A stretch of DNA of 64,000 nucleotides. Origin: Antrihabitans stalactiti. GTDB lineage: Bacteria > Actinomycetota > Actinomycetes > Mycobacteriales > Mycobacteriaceae. Location: contig NZ_VCQU01000004.1 of NCBI RefSeq assembly GCF_012932915.1, positions 124,001-188,000 of the forward strand, in the 5' to 3' direction. Positions within the stretch are counted from its first letter, which is position 1. The number at the start of each line of letters is the position of its first letter. Shown here in pieces: positions 7,347-13,723 of the stretch. The translations under genes and the position numbers were made by a program. Below the pieces are notes generated by a model. It saw nothing but the letters and a program-made list of their open reading frames with translations, was not told the DNA's origin and ran no database searches.

Positions 7347-7994
7347 TCACTGCAATCGAAACCGTAACGCGGCGACGACATCGTCGAGCGACTCCGCGAG
7401 CGCCGTCAATCGCTGGGCTGGACCGGGCGCACTCAGCACACGCTGGCGATCGGTTTCGCCGATAGGAAGGCCGGCGGAGAGCACGAACGACCGTGTGGAC
7501 GGATCGTCCGGGAGTTCAGGTTCGTTGAATTCGGGAACCGACTTGCCCGACTGCTCGGCCAATTCACGCCAGACGAGATCGAGTTGGGTAATGGCATCGA
7601 GCACGCGCGCCAGTGGGACCGCATCGTCACCATCGAACTCGTCCGGCCACACCTCGACCTCCGCTCGTGGATAGGGGTCGTCGGGTAGCCAGCGACTGAC
7701 CCGCACCCTGTCCTCGCCGACGCACAACAGTCCGAACCGGTTGCCTGGTATCGGCACACACGACGCGATGCGCGCGATGGTGCCGACATCGGTCCGTACA
7801 TCGTCGCCGCCCACTTCGTGGCCACGCGAAATCAGGACGACGCCGAACCTCGGGTCGTCATCGAGAATGCAGTTGTCGACCATGGCGATGTATCGGGGCT
7901 CGAACACCTGCAGCGGCAGGCGCTCGCCCGGCAACAGCACGGTGCCGAGCGGAAACATCGGCAGAACTTCCACACCGACAGCATGCCTGCTCAC
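7347..7994 (-). CDS. LON substrate-binding domain protein (stand-alone)
   Basis: The 215-aa protein consists of the N-terminal domain of Lon (PUA-like) with no ATPase or protease part: LPMFPLGTVLLPGERLPLQVFEPRY, then DDPRFGVVLISRGHEVGGDD and an all-helical C-terminal half. Stand-alone versions are widespread in actinobacteria; their function is unknown, with substrate recognition for proteolysis a guess. It starts 3 nt after the P450 stop and is the last gene of the ABC1-P450 operon. A later in-frame GTG (position 7973) is an alternative start. Confidence 0.85.
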   Translation of the reverse strand: MSRHAVGVEVLPMFPLGTVLLPGERLPLQVFEPRYIAMVDNCILDDDPRFGVVLISRGHEVGGDDVRTDVGTIARIASCVPIPGNRFGLLCVGEDRVRVSRWLPDDPYPRAEVEVWPDEFDGDDAVPLARVLDAITQLDLVWRELAEQSGKSVPEFNEPELPDDPSTRSFVLSAGLPIGETDRQRVLSAPGPAQRLTALAESLDDVVAALRFRLQ

Positions 7995-7997
7995 ACC

Positions 7998-9095
7998 TCA
8001 CGCGTGCGAGCGCAGGTGCAATTCGTTCAATGCGTGGAAGGTGGTCGAGTCACGCCAGACAGCGTCCCGCTCGGCAAGCCGGAGATCCGGGAATCTCGTG
8101 AAGAGCCCGGTCAACGCCTCGATGGCCTCCAATCGTGCCAGCGCTGCACCGAGGCAGAAGTGCGGACCACCGCCGAATGCCAAGTGCCCCTGTGGTTCAC
8201 GGGACAAGTCGAGCCGTAGCGGATCGTCGAATCGGCGCGGATCGACGTTGGCGCGGTCCAGCGCGAGCAGCGCGAAGCTGCCGGCAGGAATGTGTACGCC
8301 GGCCAACTCGACGTCTTCGACCGCGGTTCGCCCTGCAACCTTGATCGGGCCCTCCATGCGGAGCAACTCTTCGACGGCCCGCGCAGGATCGGTCAGCAGA
8401 TGCGCACGCTGGTCCGGATTACGAAGCACCGCAAGAGTTCCGTTGCCGATCACATTCGCAGTGGTTTCGTGTCCCGCAGCGAGCAGCAAGACACACATCG
8501 AGATGACCTCGTCGACGGTCAGGCCGCCTTCGAGCATGGAGGAGATGAAGTCGTCCCCCGGATGCTGTTTACGGTCGGCGATGATCGGTGTCAACCACAT
8601 CATGAGATCCATCGATGCATCGATGCTGGCTTCGAGATCTTCTGCAGTGGAATCGAATTCGAGCATCCGGACCAGGTCTGGCGTCAGATCCTGAAACATC
8701 TCCGCGCCTTCGGCTCCCACATCGAGCAATTCGGCGATCACCGCAAGGGGCACGACGTAGGCGAAGTCCGACATCAACTCGATGTCGTCATCGAGACCGC
8801 TCAACGCAGCGTCGACCACTGCGCGGATGCGTGGCCGCAACCGTTCGATAGCCCTGGGTGTGAATGCGGGGCTGACCAGCCGACGTAGCCGCGTGTGGTC
8901 CGGCGGATCCATGAAGAGGACGATCGTAGACGGCAACTGCTGCATCTCCGCTGGCGCCAATGAATTTCGCCGAGGATCGCTGCTCCACGACAGACTCCGC
9001 ACCACCGCCGCGACCTCGTCGAACCCGGACACGATGAATGCGCCACTCTCTTCATCCCGCTCCACCGGGCTGGTCACTGCTATCGGTGTCGTCAC
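7998..9095 (-). CDS. Cytochrome P450
   Basis: The 365-aa protein is a soluble bacterial P450 (class I type). Seen: the C-helix region DPPDHTRLRRLVSPAFTPR, the I-helix LLLAAGHETTANVIG with the acid-alcohol-type pair, the K-helix ExxR as EELLR, and the heme loop FGGGPHFCLGAALARLE with the Cys thiolate. Start at GTG 9095, which overlaps the TGA of the upstream ABC1 remnant (GTGA) and has GGAGG 8 nt upstream; the TTG at 9110 is less likely. It is coupled to the ABC1-kinase array upstream and to the LON-domain gene downstream. No ferredoxin gene is adjacent. The substrate is unknown. Confidence 0.92.
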   Translation of the reverse strand: MTTPIAVTSPVERDEESGAFIVSGFDEVAAVVRSLSWSSDPRRNSLAPAEMQQLPSTIVLFMDPPDHTRLRRLVSPAFTPRAIERLRPRIRAVVDAALSGLDDDIELMSDFAYVVPLAVIAELLDVGAEGAEMFQDLTPDLVRMLEFDSTAEDLEASIDASMDLMMWLTPIIADRKQHPGDDFISSMLEGGLTVDEVISMCVLLLAAGHETTANVIGNGTLAVLRNPDQRAHLLTDPARAVEELLRMEGPIKVAGRTAVEDVELAGVHIPAGSFALLALDRANVDPRRFDDPLRLDLSREPQGHLAFGGGPHFCLGAALARLEAIEALTGLFTRFPDLRLAERDAVWRDSTTFHALNELHLRSHA

Positions 9096-9407
9096 ACTTC
9101 TGCCCTCCAAAAGGCTGCTTCCAGTTCACCCATCTGCAGCGCACGCTGGAACAGCGGTTGCGTCTCACCGTCACCGGAGAGCGCCGAGAACGACAGAATC
9201 TGCCCAGCCTTCATCAGCACCCCCTTGGAGTGCCCAAGACGCTCGGCATCGCTCCGCTGTGCGCGCGTGAAATTCGGCCGAGTCTCCCCCACTTCGCCTG
9301 CGCCGCAGCGACTCCACGACCGCCTCACCTGCGGTCCGGCCGGCCAGGCCGACCAGCGGCGCGACGCGGCGGACCCTGCCTGTCCGTGGTGGCTCATACG
9401 CATTCAT
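9092..9407 (-). pseudogene. Decayed ABC1/UbiB kinase copy (N-term joined to C-term, frameshifted)
   Basis: Compared with the intact copy at 9528..10925, this stretch keeps the N-terminal block VAPLVGLAGRTAGEAVVESL in one frame, then after a net 1-nt shift near 9255-9275 continues in another frame with ERLGHSKGVLMKAGQILSF, which includes the KxGQ motif of the ABC1 family. It then jumps directly to a C-terminal tail LQMGELEAAFWRAEV resembling the intact tail TPMGERDMAFWGASL. About 350 residues of kinase core are missing. The start ATG 9407 overlaps the end of the preceding remnant, and the TGA overlaps the P450 GTG. Hence it is a deleted, frameshifted tandem copy, not a working kinase. Confidence 0.8.
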
Positions 9408-9531
9408 ATCGCCGCTCCCAGGCCGCCGCGGCCTCGCCCATGGGTGTCGCTACCGCCTCGCCTGCCGTCCTTCCCGCCAGACCGACTAGCGACGCCGCTC
9501 GACCGACGCGACTAATGTGTTCGCCATTCAT
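9394..9531 (-). pseudogene. Minimal ABC1/UbiB remnant (45 codons), N-term fused to C-term
   Basis: This short frame starts at ATG 9531, overlapping the TGA of the intact ABC1 gene (ATGA), and reads SRVGRAASLVGLAGRTAGEAV, almost identical to the intact N-terminus, then jumps straight to ATPMGEAAAAW, matching the intact C-terminal ATPMGERDMAFW. A 1-nt loss at the very end (TGGGAGCGGCGATATGA where an in-frame TGG-GGA-GCG would be expected) turns the last residues into ERRYECV. The whole kinase core is gone. It could still be translated as a 45-residue peptide because it keeps its coupled start. Confidence 0.75.
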
Positions 9532-10925
9532 AGCGACGCCCCCCAGAACGCCATGTCCCGCTCACCCATCGGCGTTGCCGCCGGACCGCCGCGGTCCCAC
9601 TCGGATCGGATGGCTTCCCACGGCGCGGTCGCGCGGAGGGCGCCGAGCACCGAGTTCATGCCTACGTCGATACGGACCATCATCGTGTACTGCGGATCAG
9701 GTGAAAGCGTGCTCAGCACATCGCGATACGGACCGATCGGCGAGAACTTGACCGCCACCGCCTCTCCTGCGGTGGATGCCGAGCAGGTGTAAGGCTGCGG
9801 TTCGGTCAACGATTCCATGCCTCGCCGATACCAGTCGAGCAGCTGCTGCCGATCCGGCTCGGCGCTCGGCGACAGGAAGCCCATGCGGCGCATGACTTTC
9901 GCGAGTTCATCGCCGTCGCGGTCGACCGCTGCCGACACCGACGCCTTCATATCACCGACGCGGACCGCATCCAAGCGCTTGATGCAACCGAAGTCGAGAA
10001 AGGTCACGCTGCCATCGTCGTGGAATAGATAGTTGCCCGGGTGCGGGTCCGCGTGGAAGAGCAGCAATCGACGCACGCTACCGATCGCAAAACGAAATAT
10101 TGCTTCGCCCCACCTATCGCGGAGCGCGATGTCGGCTTCGATTGCTTCCGAAAACCGCTTACCCTCAACAAGTTCCATCGTCAGAACGCGACTGGTGGTG
10201 TACTCCGAACAGACCTCGGGCACGCGGATGAACGGGTGCCCTCGGTAGTGGTCGGCGAATTCCGCTTGATTCTTCGCCTCGACGAGGTAGTCGATTTCCT
10301 CGCCGATTCGCTCGGATACCTCGGCAGCGATCGAGCGAACGTCGAATCCGATCGAGTTGGGCGCCATGCCTTTGAGCACTTGGAGGAAGGTCGCCAGTAG
10401 CTCGGCGTTGTCGAGGTCGGCGCGAATCGCTTTCGCCACACCCGGGTACTGAACTTTGACGGCGACGCGCCGCCCGTCGTGCAGTCTGCCTGCGTGAACC
10501 TGGCCGATCGACGCTGCACCGAGGGGCTCTCGGTCGAATTCTGCGAAGACCTGCTCAGGTGGCCCACCCAACTCGGCTTCGATGACTGCCACGACGTCGG
10601 AGTACGGCATCGGCGGCGCGCTGTCCTGCAGCCGGGCGAGCGCGCGCTGGTAGACGGACTGACTCGAGCCAGGAACGGCTGGCCCGAAGGTGGTGAAGGA
10701 CAGAATCTGGCCGGCCTTCATCAAGACGCCTTTGGACTGACCAAGCCGGTCGGCGTAGCGCTGCGCATTTCGTTCCTGCCGCCCCGACCGCTCGGCCCGA
10801 CCTGTTCTGCGACGCAGCGACGAGACGACCGCCTCCCCCGCGGTCCGGCCGGCAAGCCCGACGAGTGGCGCCGCGCGACCGACCCGGCTTCCACTCGAGA
10901 TGTGGGACTTTCGCTGATCCGCCAC
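9528..10925 (-). CDS. ABC1/UbiB-family atypical kinase (intact copy)
   Basis: The 465-aa protein has the ABC1 layout: the KxGQ motif in GVLMKAGQILSFTTF, the A-rich loop EPLGAASIGQVHAGRLHDGR in place of a Gly-rich loop, the VAVKVQYPGV lysine strand, the catalytic FHADPHPGNYLFHDDGSVTFLDFG (HxDxxxxN then DFG). ABC1 proteins act in isoprenoid-quinone or lipid metabolism and often show ATPase rather than protein kinase activity. GTG start with AGGGG upstream. First gene of an operon with two remnants of itself, a P450 and a LON protein; divergent from a TetR gene across two shared operator-like palindromes. A link to modification of a lipid by the P450 is inference. Confidence 0.9.
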   Translation of the reverse strand: MADQRKSHISSGSRVGRAAPLVGLAGRTAGEAVVSSLRRRTGRAERSGRQERNAQRYADRLGQSKGVLMKAGQILSFTTFGPAVPGSSQSVYQRALARLQDSAPPMPYSDVVAVIEAELGGPPEQVFAEFDREPLGAASIGQVHAGRLHDGRRVAVKVQYPGVAKAIRADLDNAELLATFLQVLKGMAPNSIGFDVRSIAAEVSERIGEEIDYLVEAKNQAEFADHYRGHPFIRVPEVCSEYTTSRVLTMELVEGKRFSEAIEADIALRDRWGEAIFRFAIGSVRRLLLFHADPHPGNYLFHDDGSVTFLDFGCIKRLDAVRVGDMKASVSAAVDRDGDELAKVMRRMGFLSPSAEPDRQQLLDWYRRGMESLTEPQPYTCSASTAGEAVAVKFSPIGPYRDVLSTLSPDPQYTMMVRIDVGMNSVLGALRATAPWEAIRSEWDRGGPAATPMGERDMAFWGASL

Positions 10926-10957
10926 TGTGACCCCTATTGAAGTGCCGCTTTGATCAC

Positions 10958-10973
10958 CTCAGTGAACACTTAG
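10958..10973. promoter_or_regulatory. TetR operator-like palindrome, site 1
   Basis: CTCAGTGAACACTTAG is an imperfect palindrome (pattern CTnAGTG-nn-CACTnAG). A second site with the same pattern lies 41 nt further on. It sits 33 nt upstream of the ABC1 GTG, where binding would cover that promoter. The natural binder is the adjacent TetR protein (inference). Confidence 0.65.
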
Positions 10974-11014
10974 TTCGCTGCGCCGTCAACCTCTCTGGTT
11001 GACCCTTCGCGAGG

Positions 11015-11030
11015 CTCAGTGTTCACTTAG
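11015..11030. promoter_or_regulatory. TetR operator-like palindrome, site 2
   Basis: CTCAGTGTTCACTTAG shares 14 of 16 bases with site 1 and ends 3 nt before the TetR ATG at 11034. Binding here would block tetR itself, so autoregulation plus control of the divergent ABC1-P450 operon is the simple model. Confidence 0.65.
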
Positions 11031-11033
11031 ACC

Positions 11034-11627
11034 ATGGCCACGGCAACCCTCACTCGAGATCGCATCCTCGACGCAGCCATGGAACTGTTCAGCGAGAACG
11101 GGTTCCGCGGCACGAGCATTACGCAGATCGAGACTGCAGCCGGACTGACGCCAGGCGCAGGCGGTATCTACCACCACTTCAGGACCAAGGAGTCGTTGCT
11201 CGAAGCTGGGCTGGCGCGCCATCTCGATCGACTGCTCGCACTGCGCGACATCACGAAGTTGATGGCGGGCCTAGGCGACCTCCGCGCCGAACTGATGCTG
11301 ATGGCTCGGTACGTGCTGTCGGAAATGGACAACGAGCAGACTCTGCTTCGCATCCTCGCTACCGAGTCGCGATCGCGGCCACACGTTCTCGACGGTGGCG
11401 TCGAGGAACTGGTTCGACGAAGCTACTCCGGTTTTGCGGGTTGGCTGGTCGACGAAGCGAATCTGACGCGCGAACGGGCCGAAAGAATCGCCGTCGTCGG
11501 GCTCGGAGCGTTGCTGTCCGCGCGACTTATCCCGACGCTGTTCTCCGTCACGCCCACCGACGTGAGCGACGAAGACTTCGTCAAGACCTGGGTCGAAATG
11601 ATGGTGCGGACGATCGAAGAGTCGTAG
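11034..11627 (+). CDS. TetR-family regulator of the ABC1-P450 operon
   Basis: The 197-aa protein has an N-terminal helix-turn-helix (RDRILDAAMELFSENGFRGTSITQIETAAGLTPGAGGIYHHF, given here as the recognisable TetR consensus region, residues 8-49) and an all-helical ligand domain. It is divergent from the ABC1 kinase operon, with two near-identical palindromes between them, the second adjoining its own start. A repressor role with an unknown, probably hydrophobic, inducer is inferred from family and layout. Confidence 0.9.
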   Translation: MATATLTRDRILDAAMELFSENGFRGTSITQIETAAGLTPGAGGIYHHFRTKESLLEAGLARHLDRLLALRDITKLMAGLGDLRAELMLMARYVLSEMDNEQTLLRILATESRSRPHVLDGGVEELVRRSYSGFAGWLVDEANLTRERAERIAVVGLGALLSARLIPTLFSVTPTDVSDEDFVKTWVEMMVRTIEES

Positions 11628-11657
11628 TCCGCACTCCCAGGCCTTGACGAAAGACGT

Positions 11658-12113
11658 TCAGCCTTCGATGGTTTCGCACGCCCACTCGGTCCAGTCGGTG
11701 GTCGCCGAATTCTTCGCCCGCGTGCAGACCGTGCTGTTCGCCTCGAAGTTTCGGCCGTAATTGACGACCGCATAGTCACCACCGGTGTAGACCACCGCGG
11801 CGGCAAGGCAGCCGGTCAGGTTGACCGATTGGACCATCCGCTGCCCACCCTGCGGGGTGTAGGCGATTTCGTGCTGCCGGTCGCACACGTTGTCGGTCGC
11901 AATCGACGCAGGTTGACCGAAGTAGAACTGCGACGCAACGCTCTCGACGTAAGTTCCGCTCCCCCGGACGTTGATGCAATTGTGTGCGAGCACACCACCT
12001 TTGGACCAGGTGCAGCCGTTCGCGTCCGCCGCCGCCCGTGGTGCCGAGACGACGCTGATCGCCGCCGACGCAGCGATTCCGGCCAGCGCAAATACAGCAG
12101 ATTTCTTCAACAT
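11658..12113 (-). CDS. Secreted protein of unknown function
   Basis: From ATG 12113 (GGGGGAG 7 nt upstream) the 151-aa product starts MLKKSAVFALAGIAASAAIS, a signal peptide with probable cleavage after RAAA. The mature part has six or so Cys residues, including CTWSKGG, AHNCINVRG, CDRQHE, LTGCLAAA, VCTRAKN and WACETIEG, spaced as expected for disulfides in a small exported protein. I recognise no domain. It is transcribed alone, convergent with the TetR gene (30-nt gap) and followed upstream by a palindrome-terminated efflux gene. Confidence 0.75.
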   Translation of the reverse strand: MLKKSAVFALAGIAASAAISVVSAPRAAADANGCTWSKGGVLAHNCINVRGSGTYVESVASQFYFGQPASIATDNVCDRQHEIAYTPQGGQRMVQSVNLTGCLAAAVVYTGGDYAVVNYGRNFEANSTVCTRAKNSATTDWTEWACETIEG

Positions 12114-12167
12114 TTTCGTACTCCCCCATTGCGAATGTGAATCTCCCCGCAACGAGTAAACCACAAA

Positions 12168-12207
12168 GTGAGCCTTTCCGAAGTTCAGGGACTCCGGAAA
12201 GACTCAC
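12168..12207. terminator. Dispersed palindrome, copy 1 (diverged), terminator of the DHA2 pump gene
   Basis: The arms GTGAGCCTTTCCGAAGTT and GACTCCGGAAAGACTCAC pair with three mismatches around a short centre. The design (GTGAGTCTTT...AAAGACTCAC with GGAGTC inner parts) matches three other copies in the window. It lies 14 nt past the stop of the minus-strand MFS gene. Confidence 0.7.
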
Positions 12208-12220
12208 CAGGGGTTGACGC

Positions 12221-13723
12221 TCAGTGCACTGCGAGGACCAGTTCACCCTCACTCGGCGCCGGAACTTCGTTGCGTAGCAACACCGCGGAGATGACCGCGC
12301 CGATCAGAAAGATTCCCGTCGCCCACCAGAAGGTGGCTGTGTAGCTCGCGACTGCGGCGTGTGCGGCCGTGTCAGGCGACAACGCCTTGCCTGCAAGGAA
12401 ATTGGTCGATGCAGTCGCTGCGATCGTGGAAAGCAATGCCGTACCGATCGATCCGCCGACCTGCTGCATCGTGTTGACCATTGCGGAGGCCACACCGGCG
12501 TCTTCGTGCTCGACCCGGGAGGTAGCGCCTTGGAACGCCGTCGCCATCGAGGCACCCAAACCCAGGCCCATCAGGAGCAGTCCGGGCAGGATGTGCAGCG
12601 CGTAAGTGCTGTCGACGTCGATCTGAGTCAGGAACGCCATACCGGCGGCGCCGACGATCATTCCGGTGGTCATCAGCACTCGCGCACCGATCTTCGGCAA
12701 GAAGATCTGCGAAGACGTCACCGACGAAAGCACCATTGCGGCAACCATCGGCAGGAACGCGAGGCCGGTCATGATCGGCGAGAAGCCCAGGATCAGCTGC
12801 AGGTAATACGTCAGGAAGAGGAAGACCGCGAACATGCCGGCCCCGACCACGAAGACTGCGAGGTAGGACGCACCGCGGGTGCGGTCCAAGACGATTCGCA
12901 GCGGCAGCAGTGGGTTGGCAACGCGCCGTTGGATGGTGACGAACACGGCTAGCAACACGACGCCGACAGTCAGCCAGCCGATGGTCGAATAGTCGCCCCA
13001 GCCTTGCGATTCGGCCTGCGAGAAGCCGTACACGATGCTGAACAGTGCGCCGGTGACGGTGAACGTACCCGGCAAGTCGAGCTTCGGCCGGTTACCCGAC
13101 ACATGCTTAGCCAGCAGCAGCGAAGCACCGACGATCGCGACGGCCGCGAAGATCAGGTTCACGTACATCGCCCAGCGCCAGGACGCCCATTCGGTCAGCA
13201 TGCCACCGAGCAACATACCGATCGCGCCGCCTGCGCCGGCGATGGCACCGAAGATGCCGAAAGCCTTTGCGCGTTCACGTGGTTCGGTGAAGGTGACAGT
13301 CAACAGCGACAATGCGGCCGGTGCGAGCATCGCGCCGAACACACCCTGGCCTGCGCGTGCGATGACCAGCATTTCGAAGCTCGTTGCCGCGCCGCCGACT
13401 GCAGAGGCAACGGCGAAGCCGGCGAGTCCGGTGAGGAACATCGTGCGGCGGCCGAAGAGGTCGCTGAGCCTGCCACCGAGCAGCAAGAGGCTGCCGAATG
13501 CGAGCGCGTACGCAGTCACTACCCACTGCCGGTTCGCGTCGGAGAAGCCGAGGGAATGCTGGGCTGCGGGCAGCGCGATGTTCACGACTGTCGCGTCGAG
13601 CACAACCATGAGTTGGGACAGTCCGAGTACGCCGAGCACCCACCAACGAGCGGCGTGCGATCCGCGCCGGCTCGCGAGAGACGTTGCGGGCGGCGTCTCG
13701 GCTTCGATTGTTGCGGTGGTCAT
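12221..13723 (-). CDS. DHA2-family MFS efflux pump (14 TM, EmrB/QacA type)
   Basis: The 500-aa protein starts MTTATIEAETPPATSLASRR and has fourteen hydrophobic helices. Motif A is GGRLSDLFGRRTMFLTG, and the opening LSQLMVVLDATVVNIALPAA plus the motif-C-like GAGGAIGMLLGGMLTEW are typical of DHA2 multidrug/H+ antiporters. ATG 13723 was chosen because GAGGT precedes it and the conserved family start begins there; the open frame extends 19 codons further. It is divergent from a TetR gene with inverted repeats in between, the classic repressor-pump layout. The substrate is unknown. Confidence 0.92.
   Translation of the reverse strand: MTTATIEAETPPATSLASRRGSHAARWWVLGVLGLSQLMVVLDATVVNIALPAAQHSLGFSDANRQWVVTAYALAFGSLLLLGGRLSDLFGRRTMFLTGLAGFAVASAVGGAATSFEMLVIARAGQGVFGAMLAPAALSLLTVTFTEPRERAKAFGIFGAIAGAGGAIGMLLGGMLTEWASWRWAMYVNLIFAAVAIVGASLLLAKHVSGNRPKLDLPGTFTVTGALFSIVYGFSQAESQGWGDYSTIGWLTVGVVLLAVFVTIQRRVANPLLPLRIVLDRTRGASYLAVFVVGAGMFAVFLFLTYYLQLILGFSPIMTGLAFLPMVAAMVLSSVTSSQIFLPKIGARVLMTTGMIVGAAGMAFLTQIDVDSTYALHILPGLLLMGLGLGASMATAFQGATSRVEHEDAGVASAMVNTMQQVGGSIGTALLSTIAATASTNFLAGKALSPDTAAHAAVASYTATFWWATGIFLIGAVISAVLLRNEVPAPSEGELVLAVH

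Follow-up and report, generated by a model that had tools for sequence, protein, structure and literature searches.

Proteins of the ABC1/UbiB family are atypical kinases or ATPases; the UbiB/COQ8 members support quinone synthesis, and another described type is that of the MABP-1 ATPases of mycobacteria. Where tandem duplicates decay, the resulting pseudogenes carry internal deletions and frameshifts next to an intact paralogue. Genes that overlap by four bases (−4 overlaps) can be coupled by termination and reinitiation; one study (PMC10666635) describes reinitiation as depending on overlaps or very short gaps, with the final 15 nt of the preceding gene being sufficient. Here, we analyzed 64,000 nucleotides of Antrihabitans stalactiti DNA (hereafter the window; contig NZ_VCQU01000004.1, C21 in our numbering, positions 124,001 to 188,000), which lie within a 6.76-Mb draft genome of 26 contigs. 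On the minus strand of the window (all positions below are those of the window), an intact ABC1/UbiB-type kinase gene, K (9528–10925), is followed by two remnants of the same gene, R1 (9394–9531) and R2 (9092–9407), and then by an intact cytochrome P450 gene (7998–9095); a TetR-family regulator gene (11034–11627, plus strand) lies divergently upstream of K. An earlier note on this DNA had assumed a Rhodococcus host; the genus is Antrihabitans. In our reading, to which we assign a probability of roughly 85%, this is an ABC1 kinase–P450 operon with an associated TetR gene, and the tandem kinase array that it once contained has decayed, leaving K. R1 and R2 resemble known decayed tandem duplicates in their internal deletions, frameshifts, adjoining intact paralogue, and intact tandem in a congener, but differ from them in that the broken copies sit in an operon with overlaps that still form an open translation chain.

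Two internally deleted kinase remnants lie between K and the P450 gene

R1 is an open reading frame (ORF) of 45 codons, in which 27 codons of the kinase start are joined directly to the kinase end (ATPMGE...AW) at a junction near 9451/9450; in its last codons, a net −1 shift near 9420–9417 leads to the present stop at 9394. R2 retains some 90 codons from the N-terminus, the KAGQ stretch among them, followed across a deletion junction near 9140–9134 by the C block MGELEAAFW, and a net −2 shift near codon 53 (near 9248) sets its conserved blocks in different frames. The N block of R2 is read from an ATG at 9407 for 78 codons to an ORF end at 9171, 75 bases ahead of the P450 start; the later blocks lie in the frame of the ATGs at 9403 and 9397, which ends at 9092 in the GTGA of the P450 start. 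In each remnant, the kinase frame is preserved across the large deletion. The earlier note had described both remnants as first and last blocks that had lost the middle; both are indeed internally deleted, but they are more broken than it described, by the net shifts of R1 and R2, and R2 still holds its long N-terminal part. Its claim that each remnant begins at an ATGA overlap stands for K and R1 (9528–9531), but the own ATG of R2 at 9407 lies inside the R1 ORF, and the second ATGA (9394–9397), at the present R1 stop, belongs to the other frame of R2. The GTGA by which the array runs into the P450 (9092–9095) had been described correctly and closes the second frame of R2.

Several searches identified these segments as kinase sequence. 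When the whole genome was searched in six frames with K as query, two N-side parts of R2 were recovered at expectation values (E) of 1.8e-7 and 1.0e-6 and the N block of R1 at 4.0e-4. The 440-base remnant DNA matched K at E 4.6e-24, the sole match besides itself at E ≤ 0.01 when 40 of the 75 first-look candidates were scored. For the C blocks, a profile of 12 homologues, with K excluded, was scored on 127,912 six-frame positions of the window, on which R2 ranked 2nd with a score of 30.2 (K itself 34.9; best unrelated position 14.9). The C block of R1 ranked 4th (14.7), with one unrelated position above it, and is therefore convincing only jointly with its place; descent from the ABC1 C-terminus is thus clear for the 3′ end of R2, and for that of R1 when its location is taken into account. 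Base identity among K, R1, and R2 is 73–82% in the common 60-base block. Both remnants combine homology to the adjacent intact gene with a disrupted frame, and the kinase array, consisting of K, two remnants that keep its start and end blocks, and an intact P450 gene, is real, as had been recognized. Scans of three remnant frames against Pfam and NCBIfam gave nothing at E ≤ 0.001, so neither R1 nor R2 is recognized as an ABC1 domain.

A congener keeps two intact kinases before the P450

The related-locus search returned 52 loci, and the later total set comprised 83. Matches to K at E ≤ 1e-95 occurred in 15 genomes among 401 drawn from the family, and matches at E ≤ 1e-120 in 2 of 394 drawn from the class and 3 of 397 drawn from the order, the own genome being counted in each; a plasmid search at E ≤ 1e-60 gave three records, each below 60% identity. 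Antrihabitans sp. YC2-6 carries two intact kinases in tandem, each 68% identical to K and 73% identical to one another, with an ATGA between the kinases and an ATGA into the P450, whereas A. stalagmiti has one kinase copy with an ATGA to the P450. The search for relatives with several ABC1 genes before this P450, which had been proposed as a check, therefore found intact counterparts of the broken copies in YC2-6.

The array is probably old and its damage looks recent

In a protein tree, K stands beside the YC2-6 pair (support 100/99). Fragment placement was weak for both remnants: R1 came to lie near one YC2-6 copy (80.9/49), and R2 fell outside the group formed by K and the YC2-6 pair (65.4/81). 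A nucleotide tree of the short blocks had supports of 36, 41, and 61, too weak for use. Ten topologies were compared by the approximately unbiased (AU) and Shimodaira–Hasegawa (SH) tests. The AU test rejected R2 as sister to K (p = 0.019), a clade of K, R1, and R2 (p = 0.022), and R2 with the second YC2-6 copy (p = 0.039); it did not reject R1 with R2 (p = 0.083), R1 with K (p = 0.61), or R2 with A. stalagmiti (p = 0.53). The idea that the remnants are recent copies of K thus fails the AU test in the case of R2, though the SH test admits it, and for R1 it is not rejected. Judged from these sequences, the array probably goes back further than a recent triplication of K would. Together with the two full ABC1 genes before the P450 of YC2-6, the AU rejection of R2 as sister to K supports the decaying tandem array that had been among the earlier proposals.

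Substitutions were counted in an N block of 20 codons and in an R2 post-shift block of 18 codons, both picked for their conservation; A and B denote the YC2-6 kinase copies. Synonymous and nonsynonymous changes in the N block were 13.0 and 1.0 for K/R1 and 9.0 and 2.0 for K/R2; the intact pairs gave 12.0 and 1.0 for K/A, 15.0 and 2.0 for K/B, and, with the most nonsynonymous change among them, 15.7 and 4.3 for A/A. stalagmiti. The post-shift block gave 9.0 and 2.0 for both K/R2 and K/A. At positions invariant in 13 homologues, R2 has none of 22 violated, and intact genes left out one by one have none or one. With zero changes in 22 codons and about two nonsynonymous sites per codon, a rough hand estimate limits unconstrained change in R2 to about 0.065 per site or less, and its unconstrained phase to about one tenth to one fifth of the length that synonymous divergence gives its branch. 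R2 was thus functional during most of its separate history, and so, less firmly, was R1. Since the conserved blocks differ mainly at synonymous sites and violate few invariant positions, the damage looks recent on the copies' own time scale, more firmly so for R2 than for R1, and it is the copies that are old. The earlier statement that the deletions are old took the age of the copies for that of the damage, and neither the substitution counts nor the invariant positions (weaker for R1) support it.

A number of observations weigh against the decay reading. The comparison within Antrihabitans comprises four genomes, that of the window included, and one of them (G001) has no match to K at 1e-100 nor to the P450 at 1e-90. 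The two YC2-6 copies pair with each other in the protein tree (94/77), a pattern that separate duplications or gene conversion could give. The AU test does not reject R2 inside the K/YC2-6 group (p = 0.20), and not one of the ten topologies fails the SH test (lowest p = 0.097, R2 sister to K), so the number and order of duplications are not fixed. In the N block, R1/R2 (12.0 synonymous, 4.0 nonsynonymous) is at the high end of nonsynonymous difference, and A. stalagmiti/R2 (16.0 and 6.0) has the most nonsynonymous change of any pair. Finally, R1 violates one of eight invariant positions, a proline, and for R1 taken by itself, recent loss and selection on an N-terminal peptide give the same picture and cannot be told apart.

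On the decay reading, the kinase gene of a TetR/ABC1/P450 operon would have become a tandem array whose divergent full copies were long-lived, as is supported by their mainly synonymous divergence and by the two copies still present in YC2-6. In the lineage of the window, two copies would later have been lost through internal deletions together with small frameshifts, at a time that is recent relative to the age of the copies, with K left. A deletion into the last codons of the P450-adjacent copy would have removed the ribosome-binding site and start of the P450; the C end of R2 may have survived because its loss would cost the P450 its start. Translation may now run from K through the two short frames into the P450 by termination and reinitiation at the 4-base overlaps, or the P450 may start by itself on its own Shine-Dalgarno (SD)-like site. 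SD-like stretches in the final codons ahead of the R1 and P450 starts (energies below) count in favor of the decay reading. Read in this way, the case is one of ordinary gene decay within a gene pair that is otherwise conserved, and it illustrates well how tandem copies can be shed from an operon of overlapping genes whose last gene stays expressible.

The open chain of overlapping frames could arise by decay

Another explanation is that selection has kept the remnants as translational relays, whose short frames would carry ribosomes from the K stop to the P450 start and so couple kinase and P450. An open chain of overlapping frames does run from K to the P450, strictly by −4 overlaps through 9531, 9397, and 9095. 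According to the reinitiation rules given in PMC10666635, such a chain could work, and the ATGA and GTGA overlaps, the P450 start included, are like those of the coupled genes considered there; the links of this putative coupling would be degenerate ORFs, however. An SD-like stretch for the next start is contained in the final codons of the kinase sequence (those for FWGA in K and for FWRA in R2), with duplex energies of −9.3 kcal/mol for the R1 start, −6.9 for the R2 ATG at 9407, and −9.8 for the P450, where the pairing falls within the last R2 codons. The 1%, 5%, and 10% quantiles of 3000 random positions are −9.3, −6.9, and −6.1, so that the sites before R1 and the P450 lie at or beyond the 1% quantile. 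In the relatives, the energies are −9.3 and −6.0 in YC2-6, −7.0 in A. stalagmiti, and −2.1 to −11.0 in the other 12, so that SD-like last codons are no group-wide rule.

We surveyed the kinase–P450 junction in 29 of the 83 loci, chosen because their ABC1 gene has a P450 or a TetR match next to it (L052 included); the window loci, repeats (L009–L011, L064), own paralogues, and loci without such neighbors were left out. The P450 gene is downstream of the ABC1 gene in 19 of the 29, upstream in eight (L065–L072), and absent from the examined stretch in two (L023, L025). A candidate in-frame P450 start (ATG or GTG) at −4 was present in 15 of the 19 loci with a downstream P450; candidate starts elsewhere were at −23 in L020, −44 and −8 in L022, −47, −14, and +79 in L073, and, among others, −14 and +1 in L074. 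Among the 19, six loci come from metagenome-assembled genomes (MAGs) of Pseudonocardiales or Pseudonocardiaceae, the five of these in the tree (L016–L019, L034) are close kin, and L016 and L052 share one MAG name, so the 15 loci with −4 are not independent. The eight loci with an upstream P450 are all from Nocardiaceae and contain the same three gene types.

The frequent −4 start in relatives speaks for a relay, but a single kinase with an ATGA, as in A. stalagmiti, requires none: among the 19 loci with a downstream P450, all 18 with one kinase have an in-frame P450 start that lies across the end of the kinase gene, which leaves no need for a spacer. The P450 also has a strong SD-like site of its own. 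We simulated decay on the intact YC2-6 tandem with 4000 runs per model, and the strict chain was kept in 32.2% of runs with random deletions only, in 27.1% when in-frame deletions were combined with one small indel per copy, and in 27.4% when random deletions were; a looser chain was kept in 66.0%, 58.5%, and 57.3%, respectively. As about 27% of simulated decays keep the strict chain, the one chain observed is unremarkable; it is by itself no evidence of selection and was not upheld as proof of it; an open chain of overlapping frames comes cheap in GC-rich DNA, which calls for caution. A selected relay, with nothing in its favor beyond the chain itself, is unlikely. Slightly less likely still is a more specific form, in which the content of the relay ORFs would be dispensable and selection would act on their starts, ends, and SD-bearing last codons, handing ribosomes, within a TetR-controlled operon, to a matched P450 on which the kinase acts or to which it delivers a membrane-bound substrate.

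It is also quite improbable that R1 is a working 45-aa peptide that uses the N-terminal segment of K, for example by acting on K. Compared with K, the block RVGRAASLVGLAGRTAGEAV carries 13.0 synonymous changes against 1.0 nonsynonymous, which speaks for such a peptide, but recent loss predicts the same bias. The post-shift block of R2 is equally conserved although it cannot be read together with the R2 N block, and the proline changed in R1 is invariant in 13 homologues. Among the neighborhoods scanned, those of the window alone had short extra ABC1 matches at E ≤ 1e-3, in a scan that did not look separately for stand-alone peptides. Because the conserved blocks of R2 lie in different frames, no single peptide accounts for both blocks, and the suggested use of the N-terminal peptide found no positive support. 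Tandem paralogues can be misassembled and the genome is a 26-contig draft, but collapse of a longer array is the least probable explanation of all, since no exact word common to K, R1, and R2 exceeds 14 bases, too little for read collapse, and the R1 and R2 junctions fall at different places of the gene.

K is an ABC1-family protein outside the curated UbiB and MABP-1 groups

K starts at a GTG and encodes 465 aa with an ABC1 domain (PF03109, 221.5 bits against a cut-off of 22.9, E 1.2e-65). Direct reading of its translation shows KAGQ, HADPHPGN, and DFG, which we take to be the KxGQ, catalytic, and DFG-like stretches of the family. The nearest solved chains are 7cy2 and 5yjz, which we take to be the mycobacterial proteins MSMEG_1954 and Rv3197, along with COQ8A/B. 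K is like the MABP-1 type ABC1 ATPases in that 5yjz and 7cy2 align to its residues 9–370/372, including the N-terminal part, but its score of 216.5 is far under the curated cut-off of 800 (NF050082); K is therefore not filed as MABP-1, and no drug-related role is implied. Likewise, the match to TIGR01982 (E 5.5e-57) and the COQ8A/B chains place K in the same family as the UbiB/COQ8 kinases, but its score of 193.3 falls short of the UbiB equivalog cut-off (487.55), and its neighbor is a P450. Five more ABC1-family genes, 32–40% identical to K, are present in the same genome (contigs C20, C21, C24, and C26; L002–L006).

The P450, of 365 aa from the GTG at 9095, was scanned as a longer 370-aa form from 9110 and matched PF00067 at 77.6 bits against a cut-off of 22.8 (E 1.1e-21). 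Solved P450s among its best matches are of the TamI, vitamin D hydroxylase, PikC, and EryF types. An Rfam scan of 7500–12500 gave no match at the gathering threshold; no sigma-70-like site was found in 8900–11100, and the one terminator-like site equals chance expectation.

A TetR, ABC1, and P450 unit recurs across actinobacterial orders

The setting of the array is the more useful lead. The divergent regulator (PF00440, E 6.8e-15) adjoins an ABC1 gene in relatives too, and units of TetR, ABC1 kinase, and P450 genes (window 7998–11627; L012–L022, L024, L034, L076–L077) occur across several actinobacterial orders, mostly with the P450 start at −4. Narrow word searches found no paper on this unit, which says little on whether one is in print.

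Between the TetR gene and K lie two 16-base palindromes, CTCAGTGAACACTTAG (10958–10973) and CTCAGTGTTCACTTAG (11015–11030). The exact pattern CTNAGTGNNCACTNAG occurs in the whole genome at these two sites only, and the reversed pattern, as a control, once. Among the congeners, YC2-6 has it once before the kinases, A. stalagmiti once elsewhere, and G001 not at all. Among 13 TetR–ABC1 spaces, four (the window, L012, L014, L015) have exact matches; six more (L013, L020, L021, L024, L076, L077) have, by eye, a one-mismatch form, and L016, L017, and L022 show, by eye, no form within one mismatch. The restriction to the TetR–K space in its own genome, along with like sites in relatives, suggests that the palindromes are a dedicated operator of the TetR protein.

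That the unit recurs in several orders, in many cases with kinase and P450 overlapping by four bases and with its own palindrome, suggests joint action of an ABC1-family ATPase and a P450. By analogy with COQ8/UbiB, a reasonable guess is that the ABC1 ATPase presents a membrane-bound substrate to the P450. In one Actinomycetota MAG (L023, 2073–5001), two divergent ABC1 genes (51% and 42% identical to K) lie, without a P450 match, adjacent to one another and beside a TetR gene.

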